A stretch of 23,266 nucleotides of DNA, taken from positions 1-23,266 of the IMG/VR virus record IMGVR_UViG_3300046507_000439. One strand, given 5' to 3'. Under the pieces are notes generated by a model. That model was not told the DNA's origin. It worked only from the letters and a program-made list of their open reading frames with translations, and did not search any database. The stretch comes from a virus. This document shows positions 418-23,266 of the stretch, piece after piece. Within the stretch, counting starts at the first letter, position 1; every line of letters starts with the position of its first letter. A program made the translations under genes and the position numbers.

Positions 418-641
418 AATTCCAAATTCCAGTATCTATTATTCATTCCTCTTAGGTATGGATTCTATATGGAAATAGAGATAGAGTTAGAATTTTAGAA
501 TTGATGGTATTAAGTGTATGTATATAAAAGATAATGTCGTTCCGATTGTTCTTGGAATTTCCCGGTTTTGTTGGAATTAAGCTCTTCCTTGAGTGGGTGA
601 AATTCCAAAACCGCCGGTCAGTGCGGAAAATCGCTGGAATT
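418..641. repeat. Cluster of six AATTCCA/TGGAATT heptamers around an AT-rich tract
   Basis: The heptamer AATTCCA occurs twice head to tail at 418-424 and 425-431 and again at 601-607. Its complement TGGAATT occurs at 553-559, 572-578 and 635-641. Between the first pair and the rest lies a very AT-rich stretch, roughly 430-545. The last copy falls inside the 3' end of the neighbouring GIY-YIG gene. Iterated short sites next to an AT-rich region suit either a replication origin or an operator array. No initiator gene is adjacent, so the role is inferred. The stretch 384-617 contains no convincing gene; it must also hold the promoter, if any, for the VRR-NUC gene. Confidence 0.5.
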
Positions 642-1304
642 CAGTTTTTGGCCGGGGATCACCATATTTCCCTTACCAGTCCTGACTACGTCGATGTACC
701 CATCCATAGTTATCTCCTCCATCTTTAGATTGAATGACCTATCGTCCAATGTTCCCAATCCCTTTTTTCGCCTTAGCCGAGAAACCGGCAAACTCCCCTT
801 TTTTATTGCTTCTATTATAGCTTTCCTGGCGGGATCGTCTGATGCGCTTATTCGCATCCCGGCGCGCGTTTTTTCGCCATCTACGATCGGTCCAAAATAT
901 TCTACTAATGCCTCATCCATCACATCTGAAGGCTTAAGACCGTAGCGAGTGCACATGTGGCGCACATAACGCGTCGCCTTGGACGAAAGAGCCATTTCTC
1001 CACCGCGAGGCATGTCGACAAAACCATAATCACTGGCCGCGAATTCTAGAACTGCTTCGCTGATCGACAAAATGGCCTCCTCCGTGGAGCATGAAAACCA
1101 CTCGCCCTCCAGTCGCTTGCCCGACAAAATCTTATGCGCAATCTTTTCTATTTTGTAAGCGACCCTGCTATTTTTGCACTTTAGGCGGTATCCAACATTG
1201 AGCTTCTTTGGGCTGGCCGTCTGTAGGCCAGAGATTCGATCATTAATGTCTCCCGCGACGCCGATCTTGCAGGAATCGCCATCGCTTATGACGTAAATGT
1301 GCAT
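618..1304 (-). CDS. GIY-YIG / T5orf172 (MUG113-like) domain protein
   Basis: The first ~85 residues follow the T5orf172/MUG113 branch of the GIY-YIG fold. They open with MHIYVISDGDSCKIGVAGD, which contains the first beta strand and the K-I-G motif, then have an R-I-x-x-L-Q helix and a late E-G-E-W-F motif. GIY-YIG domains cut DNA or, in this branch, may act in DNA binding. The remaining ~140 residues are not recognised and are lysine and arginine rich near the end. The start is supported by TAGGAGAACAAA just upstream, where the ribosome site overlaps the stop of the preceding small XRE gene and suggests translational coupling. The 3' end overlaps one copy of the AATTCCA repeat array. Confidence 0.8.
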   Translation of the reverse strand: MHIYVISDGDSCKIGVAGDINDRISGLQTASPKKLNVGYRLKCKNSRVAYKIEKIAHKILSGKRLEGEWFSCSTEEAILSISEAVLEFAASDYGFVDMPRGGEMALSSKATRYVRHMCTRYGLKPSDVMDEALVEYFGPIVDGEKTRAGMRISASDDPARKAIIEAIKKGSLPVSRLRRKKGLGTLDDRSFNLKMEEITMDGYIDVVRTGKGNMVIPGQKLNSSDFPH

Positions 1305-1982: not shown

Positions 1983-4337
1983 CTAAGCTGCCTCCTCATC
2001 TTCTGGCTTAAGCCGGACCCTTACGCCCTTGCCCTCAACGGAGGGCGTGTAGATGTGCCCCGCCACGGTGAGGCGCTCTAGCGCTTGCTTCACCATGCGA
2101 TCGTCTGCCTTGGATACGCCCTTGGCGGCTACCAGCTTAGACTGCGGCAGGCTACCATCCTTGGTTCGACGTAGCGCAGATAGAATAGCCTTGCAGAGCT
2201 CCTCGAACTGGCTGCCTGCCATATACTCCCTCGCTCCAGCATCTAGCGAATCAATAGATCGCTGCACGACGGCGTATGCCCATTCGATGTCGTCGACCGT
2301 GACGCGCGGGTCGCCTGGGTTGTTGCTTAGCGCCCTCACAGTTGCGATCTTGACGACATGCTCGGCCGTTCGCCCTATGAGACCATCATGCGCACCGTGT
2401 TCCTCGATTTGTTCATATTGCCAGTCCTCGATCGATAGCCACTTTCTTTCCGCTACCTCATCAGCCCACGGCACGGTGTATAGGTGAGGCCGCATACTCG
2501 CGTTACACCAATTGGCCTTTGCAATATCGGGAACAGGCAAAGCTGCGCGGGCGGCCTTCAACATTTTGATCAGCGAGGCAGGCGTCACCATCAGTGGAGG
2601 TGCATCGTGGCGTTCCGGCCTCACCTTCGCCTCCACCACCACAAGGCGCGCCACGAAGCCGTCGCTGAGGGTTTCCTCCGTGAGGCCGCGGTAGAACGTG
2701 GTCGGCGTCGACATGCCATATAGAGATATGGTCGGCGCGAAGATCGGATCCGAACTGCTATCTTTCAGCGGGTCGGCGTGCTCCTTTCCTGACCAGACGC
2801 TGGTAGACTTGGAGAACACTTCCAGCAGCACCTTTCTGATCGTCTTTGCCCACGACGACGATCCAGCTCCCGTTACAGACTGTAGGACGACGCCCATCTC
2901 ATCCCACGGCATGACAAACACCGGGCGGCGCCTGGCAACCTTTTCAATCGCGCTGCCGCTAGTCACTTCGCCGGGTCCGATCAGGGATTGCATGCCGGTA
3001 TCGAGGGCGAGCGTGTGCATCGTCTTGTGTGCGTGTTCCTTACCAAAGCCAGGACCGGCGATGCCGACGAGATACAAGTTTACGCCAGCACCAGTCGGCC
3101 CGACAACCTGCCGGCCGAACATGGTGGCGACATACGACAACCCAGACAAGACGGAGAACTCCGCCACAGGACGTCGGGCTGATTCCAGCGACCATTGCGC
3201 GATTGCACCGATGAGGCCGCCCGCAGCCTGCGGCGTGAACGGATCGAACCTGCCCCGCGGCGCGCGGATCGGTGGCGTCTCTTCAAGGGGCTTCTGATCA
3301 ACCACGGCCGGAACCGGAACTGAAGCACGCGCCCGTGATTTTTCCGCGATCCGCATTGCCGACGCGGCGCCGCGTTTTACCCACTCCTCTTCGTCTGGCT
3401 TGTAACCTGTTTGCCGCGTCAGCCAATCGTATGCGGGTTCAAACATGTTCGTCTGCATAGCCGCCATCACTAGATCGATCGCCGTGTGCGACGAGCCTCC
3501 GCCCCAATCGTTAATTCCGTCTGGGTGAATGCCGACATTGTGATTCTCAACGCCACGCCAGAAAGCGCGTGCTCGGTATCCGTCTCGCGTCCGCTTCAAA
3601 TCATCTGGCGAAAAAAGTGCAGGCACCCATGAATCAAGATTGGCCATCGCGAAGTTGTTGACTTCGCGCCAGATCGTTTCGCCGAATATTTCCTCACCGT
3701 TTCGAACTAGCGGTCGGAACTCCCGCAGTTCTCCGAACGGTCGAAGCGCTTCCTCGAGCCGGATAGCGATATCATCTGGCAGCTCTGGTAGCTTATCAAT
3801 CGGGGTGTCCATCAGCGTATCGTCGGTAATCCACTCATAAGCTGCCAGCGTGTCTGGGTGGATCGTCGGAGGCAAAACGGTCTGCCTGCCGTGAGCAAGG
3901 AGATCGATTATTCGGCTTTCGAAACCACCGGCGAGGATGAGGCTGAACGGGCGGCTAACGATGTTCTCCGAGCCACGATAGAACGCGCTGTATCCCTTCT
4001 GCCCCTTCTTTTTAACAAGAGGGACCGGAATCACGGCCTCGATCGCCGCACGGATCTCCATATCATCGGTATCGACATCGATAACCTTGAGATGGTTGTC
4101 TATCGCTACGCAAACGCCAGCATCCGGCCAACGCGACCAAATACTGGTTTCAATCTCAGTTGGAAGGCGATCACAGAACCGCGACCAATCCATATCGCCG
4201 TACCATTTGCCGTGCGACATGGAGCCTGGCCGCTTGCTTCCCGGCAGGACTGGGATAGCGTGATAACCCATGTCAACCAGGTCTGCGCCGACGCGAGCGT
4301 ATGGGCTGTCGATCTTCTGCTTGCTGTTGATAAGCAT
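1983..4337 (-). CDS. Bifunctional primase/polymerase-helicase (Prim-Pol N-domain, P-loop ATPase C-domain)
   Basis: In this 784-residue protein, residues ~10-200 form a Prim-Pol (archaeo-eukaryotic primase fold) domain. The catalytic acidic motif DVDTDD is at 87-92, and the motif HGRQTVLPPTIHP is at 149-161, both typical of phage and plasmid primase-polymerases. A middle region (240-320) with FWRGVENHNVGIHPDGI resembles linkers of such proteins. The C-terminal half has a Walker A at 425-435 (GIAGPGFGKEH) and a Walker B at 473-480 (VFVMPWDE), as in DUF3987-like primase-associated helicases. It should prime and unwind at the phage origin. The ATG at 4337 is chosen because it overlaps the upstream stop (TAATG) and has GAGGAAAG before it; longer in-frame starts give low-quality sequence. 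It ends in DEEAA. Confidence 0.88.
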   Translation of the reverse strand: MLINSKQKIDSPYARVGADLVDMGYHAIPVLPGSKRPGSMSHGKWYGDMDWSRFCDRLPTEIETSIWSRWPDAGVCVAIDNHLKVIDVDTDDMEIRAAIEAVIPVPLVKKKGQKGYSAFYRGSENIVSRPFSLILAGGFESRIIDLLAHGRQTVLPPTIHPDTLAAYEWITDDTLMDTPIDKLPELPDDIAIRLEEALRPFGELREFRPLVRNGEEIFGETIWREVNNFAMANLDSWVPALFSPDDLKRTRDGYRARAFWRGVENHNVGIHPDGINDWGGGSSHTAIDLVMAAMQTNMFEPAYDWLTRQTGYKPDEEEWVKRGAASAMRIAEKSRARASVPVPAVVDQKPLEETPPIRAPRGRFDPFTPQAAGGLIGAIAQWSLESARRPVAEFSVLSGLSYVATMFGRQVVGPTGAGVNLYLVGIAGPGFGKEHAHKTMHTLALDTGMQSLIGPGEVTSGSAIEKVARRRPVFVMPWDEMGVVLQSVTGAGSSSWAKTIRKVLLEVFSKSTSVWSGKEHADPLKDSSSDPIFAPTISLYGMSTPTTFYRGLTEETLSDGFVARLVVVEAKVRPERHDAPPLMVTPASLIKMLKAARAALPVPDIAKANWCNASMRPHLYTVPWADEVAERKWLSIEDWQYEQIEEHGAHDGLIGRTAEHVVKIATVRALSNNPGDPRVTVDDIEWAYAVVQRSIDSLDAGAREYMAGSQFEELCKAILSALRRTKDGSLPQSKLVAAKGVSKADDRMVKQALERLTVAGHIYTPSVEGKGVRVRLKPEDEEAA

Positions 4338-6578: not shown

Positions 6579-7915
6579 GCTGCACCTGCTTGCGAGGGGG
6601 CGAAGAGGTCACCAATAGGTGAATTGTCGTTGGCGGGGTTCGACCGAGCGGCGGGCTGTGCTTGCGCGACAGCGGGCCGCTGTAGTTCGTCGACAGCCCA
6701 TTGAATGCGCGCCTGCGCGATCGGCATGTATTCGTCCTCACGCTCGCAGCCGATGAACTGAAAGCCCTCCAAGACGGCTGCTTTGCCGGTGCTGCCGCTG
6801 CCCATGAACGGATCCAAGATGATGCCGCCGGGAGGTGTGATGAGACGGCAGAGCCATTGCATGAGGCTGGTTGGCTTTACGGTCGGGTGGGTGTTGGCGC
6901 GAAGAGAACGGTAGACGCCGTCTTCTGCCTGCGCCTCTGTGCGCATCTTGGTGTCAGTGTTCAGACCATCGCCATAGGTGCTGTTTGGCGGCTTCTTCGG
7001 AAGATGGTCCAACCCAGCATCCCGATCAGCACGGCTGGCCTTGGCGCAATAGAAGAAGCGGGCTGCGGAACCGCCGTTGTCGTCAATGCCACGAATGTTG
7101 TTCGTGCCTTCCTTCGGCCTTGCCGTCTCTGGACTTGCGACATCGTGCCGTTGCTGAATGCCGCGCAATCCAGCCTTGCTTGGCGCTGTTGATGGAAACG
7201 CCGCCAGCACCTCGTCGCTGCCGTCGTGGGCGATGTTGGCGGGCCAGCGGCCTCCGTCTTTTTGTTCGTAAACCCCCGGCACATTAGCTGCGCCGAACAC
7301 GCCCGCGCCAGAAGAACCGAGCGAAACATTGCGCGTTGCCTTGATATCCTCTTCGGTGGCAACCCTGCACCCATCCACATTGATCGCACCCACGCCCCAC
7401 TCGACGAGGTTCTCGGCAATCGTGCCGTCAAGAGGCTTGCGCGCCATGCAGATCGGTTCCCACGCCGGCTTCAGCGCAGAACCCCATCCTTCCCAGTCGC
7501 CATGCTGATTATGGGACTTCGGAAAGCCACTTCCAAAAGCCCAGCCGATTTGGTCCCTGATCTCAAAGCCCGCGTCTTCGATAGCGACGGCCATACGGTG
7601 GTATGTGCGCGTGCCACCGAACGCCACGACATGCCCGCCGGGCTTCAGAACGCGCAACACTTCGGCCCAGAACTCGTCGCTGAACGCGACTTCGCCAGTG
7701 TCCCACTGCTTGCCCATAAAGCCCGCGGCGCCACGGCCATAAACGTCTTTAGCCGGGGCAGAACCCGGCTTGCCGAACCGCTTCTGGATCGAAACCAGAG
7801 CATACGGCGGATCGCAGACGACGGAATGAATGGAATTGTCGGCAAGGCTGCGCAGAACGTCTCTGCAGTCGGCATGAAATAGGCGGGCGTTGCCCACCGT
7901 AACTGTCGGTTCCAA
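6575..7915 (-). CDS. DNA N4-cytosine/N6-adenine methyltransferase (beta class)
   Basis: The catalytic motif DPPY is at residues 35-38 and the S-adenosylmethionine motif DPFMGSGSTG is at 368-377, preceded by THPTVKP. This order defines beta-class DNA methylases of the N6/N4 family, which act on exocyclic amino groups of A or C. The target-recognition insert lies between. I choose a TTG start (446 residues): CACCACAATGAGGAGACACAA immediately precedes it with the same spacing as other leaders, and the longer in-frame extension is low complexity and overlaps the leader hairpin. The tail is ANDNSPIGDLFAPSQAGAA. With the C5 enzyme it probably gives the phage two distinct protective marks. Confidence 0.9.
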   Translation of the reverse strand: MEPTVTVGNARLFHADCRDVLRSLADNSIHSVVCDPPYALVSIQKRFGKPGSAPAKDVYGRGAAGFMGKQWDTGEVAFSDEFWAEVLRVLKPGGHVVAFGGTRTYHRMAVAIEDAGFEIRDQIGWAFGSGFPKSHNQHGDWEGWGSALKPAWEPICMARKPLDGTIAENLVEWGVGAINVDGCRVATEEDIKATRNVSLGSSGAGVFGAANVPGVYEQKDGGRWPANIAHDGSDEVLAAFPSTAPSKAGLRGIQQRHDVASPETARPKEGTNNIRGIDDNGGSAARFFYCAKASRADRDAGLDHLPKKPPNSTYGDGLNTDTKMRTEAQAEDGVYRSLRANTHPTVKPTSLMQWLCRLITPPGGIILDPFMGSGSTGKAAVLEGFQFIGCEREDEYMPIAQARIQWAVDELQRPAVAQAQPAARSNPANDNSPIGDLFAPSQAGAA

Positions 7916-20552: not shown

Positions 20553-20671
20553 GTCTTTTGCCTTCCTCTCGTTAGTGCCCAAAAGGCGGGCCTTGTATTT
20601 TGTTTTGGGTTAGGCAGTCCTCCAACCGGCCCGCGCTTTATTCTGCGTCTTGTGTGCCGTTTGTGTGATTA

Positions 20672-20763: not shown

Positions 20764-21516
20764 ATGAGTGCTCTTTCTGATTTCCTCACCGCACGGGCAG
20801 CGGCGCTTGGAATCACGCAAACCGATCTGGCGCTTAAGGTCGGCATGTCGCAGCCCAGTATCAGTGATTTGTTCGCCGGCATGGTCTCGTCCCCCAGGAA
20901 GTGGCGCGAGATCGCGCGCGAGCTGCAGATCCCGGAAAAACAGATGCGCGAACTGATGAACGACGCCGGCCGAGATGGCGGCAAGTCGACGCGTCTGCCG
21001 CGTAGTGTTTCGCGAATGACACCGGAAGACATAGTCCGTCTGTCCGAGCAAGAAAACAACCATGAGCCGAACGCGCGGATCGATCAGTCCATTCCCATCC
21101 CGTTTAACGTGAAGCCTGGCCGGATGATCCCTGTTTTGGGCGAAGCTGTGGGCGGTGTCGACGGCGAGTATGAATTCAACGGCTCGGTGCTCGACTACGT
21201 CGCCTGCCCCCCGTCTCTGGCGAACGTGCCGAATGCATACGGCGTTTATGTCGACGGCGAGTCCATGTCTCCGCGCTATCGACCAGGCGAGACTGTCTAT
21301 GTACACCCCGGCAAGCCGGCTCGTCGAGGAGACGACGTAATCGTGCAGATCGCAGCATCTGAGGACGGCCGCCCGCCTCATGGTTTCATCAAAGAATTCG
21401 TCGGATGGGCCGGAGATGAGCTTGTGCTTCGCCAATATAATCCCGAATCAAAAATCAAGTTTGAGCGCGGCAAAGTGGTTTCGGTTCATCCAATAGTACT
21501 AGCCGGGAAATATTGA
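20764..21516 (+). CDS. C1-type prophage repressor with intact S24 peptidase domain
   Basis: In this 250-residue protein the N-terminal HTH spans ~5-60: GITQTDLALKVGMSQPSISD is a textbook XRE helix pair. The C-terminal S24 domain has the catalytic pair Ser167 (VDGESMSP) and Lys210 (HGFIKEF), 43 residues apart as in lambda cI. The cleavage region EAVGG near residue 127 lacks the classic Ala-Gly, so the cut site may differ. RecA-stimulated self-cleavage would release repression during DNA damage. It should bind the TATAGGTYRA sites on both sides of its gene. The ribosome site is weak (AAGGGA), which suits low-level expression. Confidence 0.92.
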   Translation: MSALSDFLTARAAALGITQTDLALKVGMSQPSISDLFAGMVSSPRKWREIARELQIPEKQMRELMNDAGRDGGKSTRLPRSVSRMTPEDIVRLSEQENNHEPNARIDQSIPIPFNVKPGRMIPVLGEAVGGVDGEYEFNGSVLDYVACPPSLANVPNAYGVYVDGESMSPRYRPGETVYVHPGKPARRGDDVIVQIAASEDGRPPHGFIKEFVGWAGDELVLRQYNPESKIKFERGKVVSVHPIVLAGKY

Positions 21517-22600: not shown

Positions 22601-23266
22601 ATGGCAAAGAGAGCCACCAAGACTGCTGCCGTGCATACCGAAGTGCAGACGGAAGAAGCCGCGAAGCCGGTAGAGCTTGCGACATACAAGGGCTTTGGCG
22701 CTGACTGGCAGTGCCGTGGCTTTCAATACGCGATCGGCGAAACATACAAAACAGAACGTCGCGTCGTCCGGTGCGGCGAAGGAGCGTTCCACTCCGTTTT
22801 GATGCCGCTTGACGCATGGAGCTACTACGGCCCAGCAAATAGCAAGTTTGCACTCACAAAGGTTGGCGGCAGCATCGTCGATGACCCAGATGGTGACAGC
22901 AAAATCGCATCTGCAGAAATCACCATCAGTGCCGAATTGAAGCTTCCAGAATTCATTCGCAAGGCAGTCGCATGGATCGTCGACGCAGCAAAGGAGCGTG
23001 TCACAACCGGCTACCGTGCCCATGCCGCGAGCACCGGGAATGGTGCCCATGCCGCGAGCACCGGCTACCGTGCCCATGCCGCGAGCACCGGGAATGGTGC
23101 CCATGCCGCGAGCACCGGGGACTATGCCCATGCCGCGAGCACCGGGGACTATGCCCATGCCGCGAGCACCGGGAATGGTGCCCATGCCGCGAGCACCGGG
23201 AATGGTGCCCATGCCGCGAGCACCGGGAATGGTGCCCATGCCGCGAGCACCGGGAATGGTGCCCAT
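22601..23266 (+). CDS. Phage DUF7666-like domain protein with 9-residue repeats, C-terminus beyond window
   Basis: 222 residues are visible. Residues ~27-70 (LATYKGFGADWQCRGFQYAI, then GETYKTERRVVRCGEGAFHS) match a domain common in phage proteins with core T-Y-K-G-F, C-R-G-F-Q-Y and G-x-x-Y; I believe it is catalogued as DUF7666 but could not check. From residue 140 the protein is a tandem array of AHAAST plus three variable residues (GNG, GYR, GDY). Regular Gly/Ala/Ser/Thr repeats with an invariant Ala-His-Ala-Ala core suggest a stacked beta-solenoid or extended fibre. The start follows ATTGAGGAGACAGACATC. Function is unknown, and the repeat length may vary between isolates. Confidence 0.8.
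   Translation, partial: MAKRATKTAAVHTEVQTEEAAKPVELATYKGFGADWQCRGFQYAIGETYKTERRVVRCGEGAFHSVLMPLDAWSYYGPANSKFALTKVGGSIVDDPDGDSKIASAEITISAELKLPEFIRKAVAWIVDAAKERVTTGYRAHAASTGNGAHAASTGYRAHAASTGNGAHAASTGDYAHAASTGDYAHAASTGNGAHAASTGNGAHAASTGNGAHAASTGNGAH
23018..23266 (+). repeat. 27-bp tandem repeat, nine units plus a partial
   Basis: Units begin every 27 bases from 23018 to 23261. The first 18 bases (GCCCATGCCGCGAGCACC) are identical in every full unit. Only the last nine vary, giving GNG six times, GDY twice and GYR once, and each change lies in codons 8-9 apart from synonymous Gly. Such uniformity points to recent expansion or gene conversion. The array continues past the window. Confidence 0.95.

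Follow-up and report, generated by a model that had tools for sequence, protein, structure and literature searches.

The non-coding gap at bases 384-617 is probably the replication origin of this phage, an origin of the iteron type that would be read by the C-terminal winged helix of the phage primase. The DNA analysed is a virus record of 23,266 bases (hereafter the window), for which the initial annotation had suggested a possible replication origin at a repeat array beside an AT-rich tract. That interpretation, though unproven, is supported as the best reading of the array, of its AT-rich core and of a conserved place beside Prim-Pol genes; it further draws on the excess of the repeats over chance, a winged-helix prediction for the primase, and a joint change of repeat word and protein domain in close relatives.

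The heptamer AATTCCA occurs six times within 224 bases (418-641), in both orientations and with one tandem pair, and only once elsewhere in the window (at 7831). Window-wide, these seven copies compare with 2.46 expected and with a maximum of six in 100 shuffles, while in the gap, which holds five copies, no 7-mer reached five in any of 200 dinucleotide shuffles (maximum, three). The tandem pair lies at 418-424 and 425-431 on the plus strand, followed by copies at 553-559 and 572-578 (minus strand) and 601-607 (plus strand), and the sixth copy (635-641, minus strand) falls within the 3' end of the neighboring nuclease ORF. Between the tandem pair and the remaining copies is an AT-rich core (432-548), a candidate DNA unwinding element, with a GC content of 28% relative to 39% for the gap and 57.5% for the window. 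The eight lowest-GC 150-bp windows (overlapping, in steps of 10) all start at 391-461, and the ninth starts at 20641. The six heptamers, two of them in tandem, and the adjoining tract of 28% GC, which had been noticed from the sequence, are thus real and exceed chance. The site had also been placed just downstream of the leftward gene unit, which is wrong: the gap lies inside that unit, between a GIY-YIG ORF (618-1304) and the start of a VRR-NUC-type gene (383 to 3), as the leader of the latter.

All of the genes around the gap are on the minus strand. The VRR-NUC-type gene (3-383), which is truncated by the window edge, matches phrog_824 and is 86% identical to a stretch annotated as VRR-NUC in phage RHph_TM3_3_14B, and the Pfam search of its 127-aa fragment returned no match. 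On the other side, the GIY-YIG ORF is followed by a small HTH regulator (1314-1514; PF13560, 2.2e-6; phrog_14076, 4e-27), an ORF without known function and with an uncertain start (1533-1910; unmatched in Pfam and PHROG at E 0.001), and the proposed initiator, a Prim-Pol primase/DUF3987-type helicase (1983-4337; PF09250, 3e-16; phrog_3022 DNA primase, 3.8e-72; DUF3987, 4e-5, which is under the Pfam cut-off). Thus, 1.4 kb with three ORFs separates primase gene and gap in the window, whereas the gap directly adjoins the Prim-Pol primase gene in relatives (AP-16-3, RHph_TM3_3_14B, and loci L023-L027). A PHROG search of the window found a repressor-like protein at 20764-21516. Separately, bases 23016-23266 consist of a tandem 27-base unit (9.3 copies, 92% matches) that reaches the window end and, in an open frame, encodes a 9-residue repeat (AHAASTGNG and variants).

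The C-terminal stretch of the primase (1983-2312, minus strand) was modelled by AlphaFold2 with a pLDDT of 87.6, and a VIA structure search with this domain returned winged helices with Z scores of about 9-10. The VIA matches were winged helices of many functions, with no replication initiator prominent among them. With Foldseek, the best match to the domain had an E-value of 4.4e-3, short of the 0.001 threshold, and a PDB sequence search with the primase profile gave no match at E 0.1. The predicted winged helix suggests that the initiator candidate possesses a C-terminal DNA-binding domain.

The gap is syntenic and alignable with the corresponding gaps of AP-16-3, RHph_TM3_3_14B, and L026, and AP-16-3, RHph_TM3_3_14B, and L023 carry an AATTCCA array at the equivalent place, directly between primase and VRR-NUC. 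Conservation of heptamer spacing, which had been suggested as a check, was observed in that AP-16-3 and RHph_TM3_3_14B retain the tandem pair, the flanking copies and the AT-rich core. In RHph_TM3_3_14B, the gap contains all but one of the 12 lowest-GC windows (150 bp, overlapping, in steps of 10; 5901 in total) and 6 of the 14 AATTCCA copies. The whole-genome GC skew of this phage turns at 8.8 and 57.4 kb, away from the gap, and neither supports nor refutes the site.

Across the relatives, most gaps carry repeats, but the word varies (TTCCA, TTGCA, CACGCTC, CCAGACA, CCATACA, TGTCACG, and others). RHph_X2_25 has 16 copies of CGTGACA at the equivalent place. A VRR-NUC protein search yielded 17 IMG/VR contigs, 16 of which contain the gap (L021 begins inside the gene). 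In two of these loci (L005, L006) the gap sequence is the window's own, and the words elsewhere are GCCCCAG (L007), ACTGTGC (L008), AATTGGGG (L009, with L010 and L011 alike), CCAGACA (L012, with L013 and L014 alike), CCATACA (L015), CCGTGCA (L020), and GACGAAA (L016, L018, L019, and more weakly L017). A word unmatched by 200 shuffles at k = 6, 7 or 8 was present in 20 of 28 gaps, a set in which L042 is a second copy of L036; the eight gaps without such a word are L017, L026, L029, L032, L039, L042, L045, and L056, with L026 failing narrowly (3-7 of 200). Among more distant loci, the upstream proteins contained Prim-Pol in all ten that were scanned (accompanied by AAA_25 in six, by DUF3987 in three, and by neither of these in the last), and in L016, L018, and L020 the Prim-Pol gene is not the immediate neighbor of the gap. 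In 25 further loci, tblastn found a VRR-NUC gene in four, and 20 of the other 21 have an array after the primase stop codon, the exception being L108. Arrays were judged by eye in L040, L047-L049, and L087, and by word counts without shuffles elsewhere. The whole-genome searches added little, since the class-level scan gave one hit in 385 (the one already known) and the genome-contig scan gave two loci. Judging by titles and abstract openings, none of the papers found in a literature search that excluded preprints and most subscription journals describes iterons at this locus, and the words "primase," "replication," "repeats" and "iteron" are absent from the main text of the AP-16-3 paper (PMC10460002). 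As a separate observation, three related AAA_25 Prim-Pol phages (L004, 6164-6600, and the gaps of L012 and L015) carry the iterons TGTCACG, TGTCTGG, and TGTATGG, which have their outer bases in common and differ in the middle, and their primases are 33-39% identical over the last 75 columns compared to 87-91% in the helicase.

The exchange of the word is clearest in L026. In a tree of the primase core (query residues 1-700, 21 rows), the L026 primase is the sister of the window primase (support 95/93) inside the AATTCCA group. The two proteins differ in 34 of 382 columns up to residue 380, in only 2 of 350 columns across residues 381-730, and in 30 of the 78 columns thereafter. TTCCA is absent from the L026 gap, which instead has TTGCA at alignment columns 78/79, 119/120, 129/130, 142, 271, and 273; AP-16-3 has TTCCA at columns 79, 119, 129, 142, and 273, and the window has it at three of these (79, 129, and 273). 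The core with AGAATCCAT and GGAATGAATAATAG is common to the window and L026 despite their different iterons. Loss of the heptamers in close relatives had been named in the initial annotation as a result that would refute an origin. AATTCCA has indeed been lost from L026, yet a different repeat stands at matching places and is accompanied by an altered primase C-terminal domain, and such a joint change is what an initiator-iteron pair predicts. Since the L026 VRR-NUC is only 48% identical to that of the window, the exchange may extend beyond the domain and the origin.

A single primase position separates loci with the two words. At query residue 761 (residue 737 counted from the ATG at 4337; Ala737, encoded at 2127-2129), all 4 TTCCA loci have alanine or threonine (A, A, A, T) and all 14 TTGCA loci have arginine. 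Three of 729 gap-free primase columns separate the 4 loci from the 14 (189, 290, and 761), and column 761 alone is uniform on the TTGCA side; the residue sits between helices two and three of the predicted winged helix. These 18 loci, from a total of 23, leave out L070 and L071 (arginine, no array), L072 (glutamic acid, GATTTCCTGA-like repeats), and L047 and L049 (glutamine, AACTT), and L069, classed as TTGCA, has two TTGCA and four TTACA copies. Because the 18 loci are kin, 18 of 18 does not mean 18 independent events; on the core tree, the TTCCA label must have changed at least twice. The rule linking arginine to TTGCA was first noticed post hoc and was tested on new loci only afterwards. 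The fresh locus L087, with arginine and TTGCA, fits the rule. Across 20 further loci, all nine with glutamine carry AACTT, as L047-L049 had suggested, while nine further arginine loci with arrays comprise three with TTGCA (not all distinct, with L118 resembling L076 and L116 and L117 resembling each other), five with TTGCCA, in which TTGC is kept, and one with GTTCCC. The last of these, L104, is an exception to the residue rule, with an AGTTCCC array after the primase stop despite its arginine. Given this mixture among arginine loci, the close group is the widest in which the single residue can be decisive, and neighboring residues must matter further out. No array follows the primase in L090 and L108, and the arginine primases of L070, L071, and L108 have no repeat array beside the gene; the origins of these three may lie elsewhere. 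As a separate observation made after the fact, the glutamine group has ACTTTTG where the residue three positions before the class-separating one is glutamine (L047, L048, L093, L100) and ACTTGTG where it is phenylalanine or histidine (L049, L094, L097-L099, L101-L103).

Over all pairs of loci, those with the same iterons are not distinguished from those with different ones by the identity of the C-terminal domain (p 0.78; 750/2000 label permutations). When helicase identity was 84% or more (25 pairs; a cut-off picked after the data were seen), domain identity was 33-68% for the 8 pairs with different iterons versus 64-95% for the 17 pairs with the same iterons, with L023 accounting for the overlap. 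Within this phage group, residue 737 (alanine/threonine or arginine) tracks the central base of TT[C/G]CA, a rule that is weaker in distant relatives.

We infer that binding, melting and initiation all take place at the gap: the Prim-Pol primase-helicase would bind AATTCCA through its C-terminal winged helix, and bound copies flanking the AT-rich core would open it. With the helicase part loaded, priming would fall to the Prim-Pol part and extension to the host polymerase, assisted by the clamp that the phage encodes.

It is improbable that the repeats are instead operators of a regulator controlling the VRR-NUC gene and the genes following it, with a rapid turnover of operators and regulator that reflects immunity instead of replication. 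An operator function would fit the position of the gap as leader of a leftward gene, the presence of both the HTH protein and the repressor-like protein in the window, and the variation that repressor operators also show among related phages. However, AATTCCA is absent near the repressor genes at 19-22 kb, a search of 300-700 limited to the sigma-70 consensus found nothing promoter-like, in the close group the words follow a primase C-terminal residue, and the 20 loci without a VRR-NUC match still have their array after the primase stop. It is very unlikely that the array serves for packaging, as a cos/pac site recognized by the terminase small subunit (often a winged-helix protein, and in RHph_TM3_3_14B encoded in the same direction by a gene ending about 3.4 kb further), since the arrays follow the primase stop even without VRR-NUC behind them and the joint change is with the primase residue, although L026 also differs downstream, in its VRR-NUC. 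Separately, a DnaA-type origin was rejected, with the box consensus TTWTNCACA absent from both strands of 384-617, as was a known RNA element, with no Rfam match at gathering scores. VRR-NUC was likewise rejected as the reader of the repeats, since the L007 VRR-NUC is 87% identical and goes with other iterons, while that of AP-16-3 is 45% identical and goes with the same iterons.

The replication-origin reading also bears on the GIY-YIG (MUG113/T5orf172) nuclease that adjoins the gap (618-1304, minus strand; PF13455, 6.8e-12, residues 12-78; PF10544, 1.1e-10, residues 2-78). Its nuclease domain has 18 invariant columns in common with three other T5orf172 ORFs. When the window was searched with the primase, a second match fell inside this ORF, where 669-830 (minus strand) aligns with primase query residues 738-795 (43% identity, E 1e-4). 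An HMM of 15 primase domains ranked the nuclease second of 332 window ORFs, after the primase itself (E 2.9e-6; next, 0.53), and hhalign gave E 2.5e-7 over 56 columns. When 4702 distinct ORFs from the fetched loci were screened with the same HMM, 77 matched at E<=1, namely 73 long proteins with a primase core, three partial primases, and the nuclease itself, here from a contig of this phage. The last 80 residues of the nuclease, searched against 50,697 phage records, had primases of this family as their best three matches, at weak E-values of 0.05 to 2, and nothing but primases of this family scored better than E 5. The structure model of the C-terminal half was unusable (pLDDT <50), and a fold search with it led nowhere. 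In a scan of viral contigs for close relatives, the nuclease turned up on only two, both carrying the sequence of this phage. Near the locus, L004, L009, L012, L017, L032, and L044 have T5orf172/GIY-YIG ORFs that lack a primase-like domain; the one in L032 (phage NV1.1.1, 7342-7761) likewise sits between primase and gap.

Judged by its sequence, the protein is most simply read as an origin-directed nuclease. Its initiator-like domain and the wider pattern of repeat words across relatives both go beyond the initial annotation. In the hhalign alignment, its Arg179 (768-770) pairs with the class-separating primase residue, and the window gap has no TTGCA; this suggests, without proof, that the nuclease reads TTGCA rather than its own TTCCA, and it may therefore attack rival origins. 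Against a firm TTGCA target, the domain is about equally similar to both classes (scores of 86 for L003 and 83 for the window, its own class, versus 92 for L039 and 79 for L036, the arginine class), and L104 shows that arginine does not always go with TTG. Tentatively, and with less than even probability, we suggest that a homing-type nuclease carrying the group initiator's iteron-reading domain may cut the TTGCA origins of close phages while sparing its own TTCCA origin, and that such pressure could drive fast iteron change with a near one-residue, one-base code.

Two other accounts of the nuclease were weighed. It is rather unlikely that its C-terminal domain recognizes the AATTCCA iterons of this phage, with the protein controlling or restarting the phage's replication, for instance through nicking: the domain scores own-class primases about as well as arginine-class ones and the end of the gene adjoins the iterons, but the residue at the place separating TTGCA from TTCCA loci is arginine, TTGCA is missing from the phage's own gap, and cutting its own origin would presumably be costly. 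We likewise doubt that it is an ordinary homing endonuclease whose C-terminal likeness to the primase is functionally meaningless. The domain-less ORFs near the locus in six relatives and the poor C-terminal model would agree with such an enzyme, but its rank directly behind the primase in the HMM search of the window, its standing as the sole non-primase among the 77 matches and, at weak E-values, the restriction of its phage-record matches to primases of this family argue against it.

The proposed origin can be compared with known systems. In SaPI Rep and SCCmec Cch2, C-terminal domains bind repeats directly downstream of their own genes (PMC7581432). The phage system would similarly consist of an initiator helicase whose C-terminal domain recognizes short repeats just downstream of its own gene, with binding here being predicted, but it differs in having a Prim-Pol/DUF3987-type protein, in belonging to phages of rhizobia and relatives, in that the repeats flank an AT-rich core, and in that the word differs strongly between close relatives. 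The features of SaPI/Cch2-type systems found here are an array next to the initiator gene (1.4 kb apart in the window), an AT-rich region and a predicted C-terminal winged helix; joint change of initiator and repeat is clear for the window and L026 and for one residue in 18 loci, but it is absent from all-pair domain identity and has exceptions among the arginine loci. The crenarchaeal plasmid pRN1 encodes ORF904, a Prim-Pol initiator that has a winged helix at its C terminus and whose origin, a 100-bp stem-loop, lies downstream (PMC4234260). It resembles the phage protein in joining Prim-Pol and helicase in one protein, in its C-terminal winged helix and in an origin just past the gene, although its origin is a stem-loop without iterons.

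In PLE satellites of Vibrio cholerae, the origin and the RepA_N domain of RepA vary in concert, and the remaining parts of the initiator are constant (PMC8263062). In the close relatives of this phage, origin and initiator DNA-binding domain likewise vary jointly and the remainder of the initiator is kept, but the domain is a predicted winged helix at the C terminus and the words measure about 7-8 bp, in place of RepA_N and semi-palindromic iterons of about 30 bp. Phage ICP1 encodes Odn, in which a T5orf172 nuclease is joined to a RepA_N-like domain; its cleavage of the PLE origin depends on the iterons (PMC8263062), and more Odn-like genes have been reported (PMC10448857). Both Odn and the nuclease described here join a T5orf172 domain to a relative of an initiator DNA-binding domain, with 42% identity for Odn (PMC8263062, PMC10448857) and 39-43% here. 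Odn has its DNA-binding part, RepA_N, first and is directed against a satellite origin; by contrast, the nuclease comes first here, followed by a domain similar to the winged helix found in this phage's own family of primases, and the phage's own proposed origin lies next to the gene. By analogy, the nuclease would work like Odn without being a member of its group, given that its extra domain follows the nuclease and matches the Prim-Pol winged helix rather than RepA_N. In phage PhiPA3, a homing endonuclease harms a co-infecting phage (PMC11620839). The window unites the themes of initiator/origin co-change and of a nuclease with a borrowed domain, using other parts.

If these readings are right, phages of soil bacteria would keep their primase core and the place of their origin while swapping the origin word together with the small domain that reads it, and initiator specificity would be testable residue by residue using natural variants. 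The nuclease would then be another, differently built T5orf172 protein with a borrowed origin-reading domain, arising within one phage group and not derived from a satellite.
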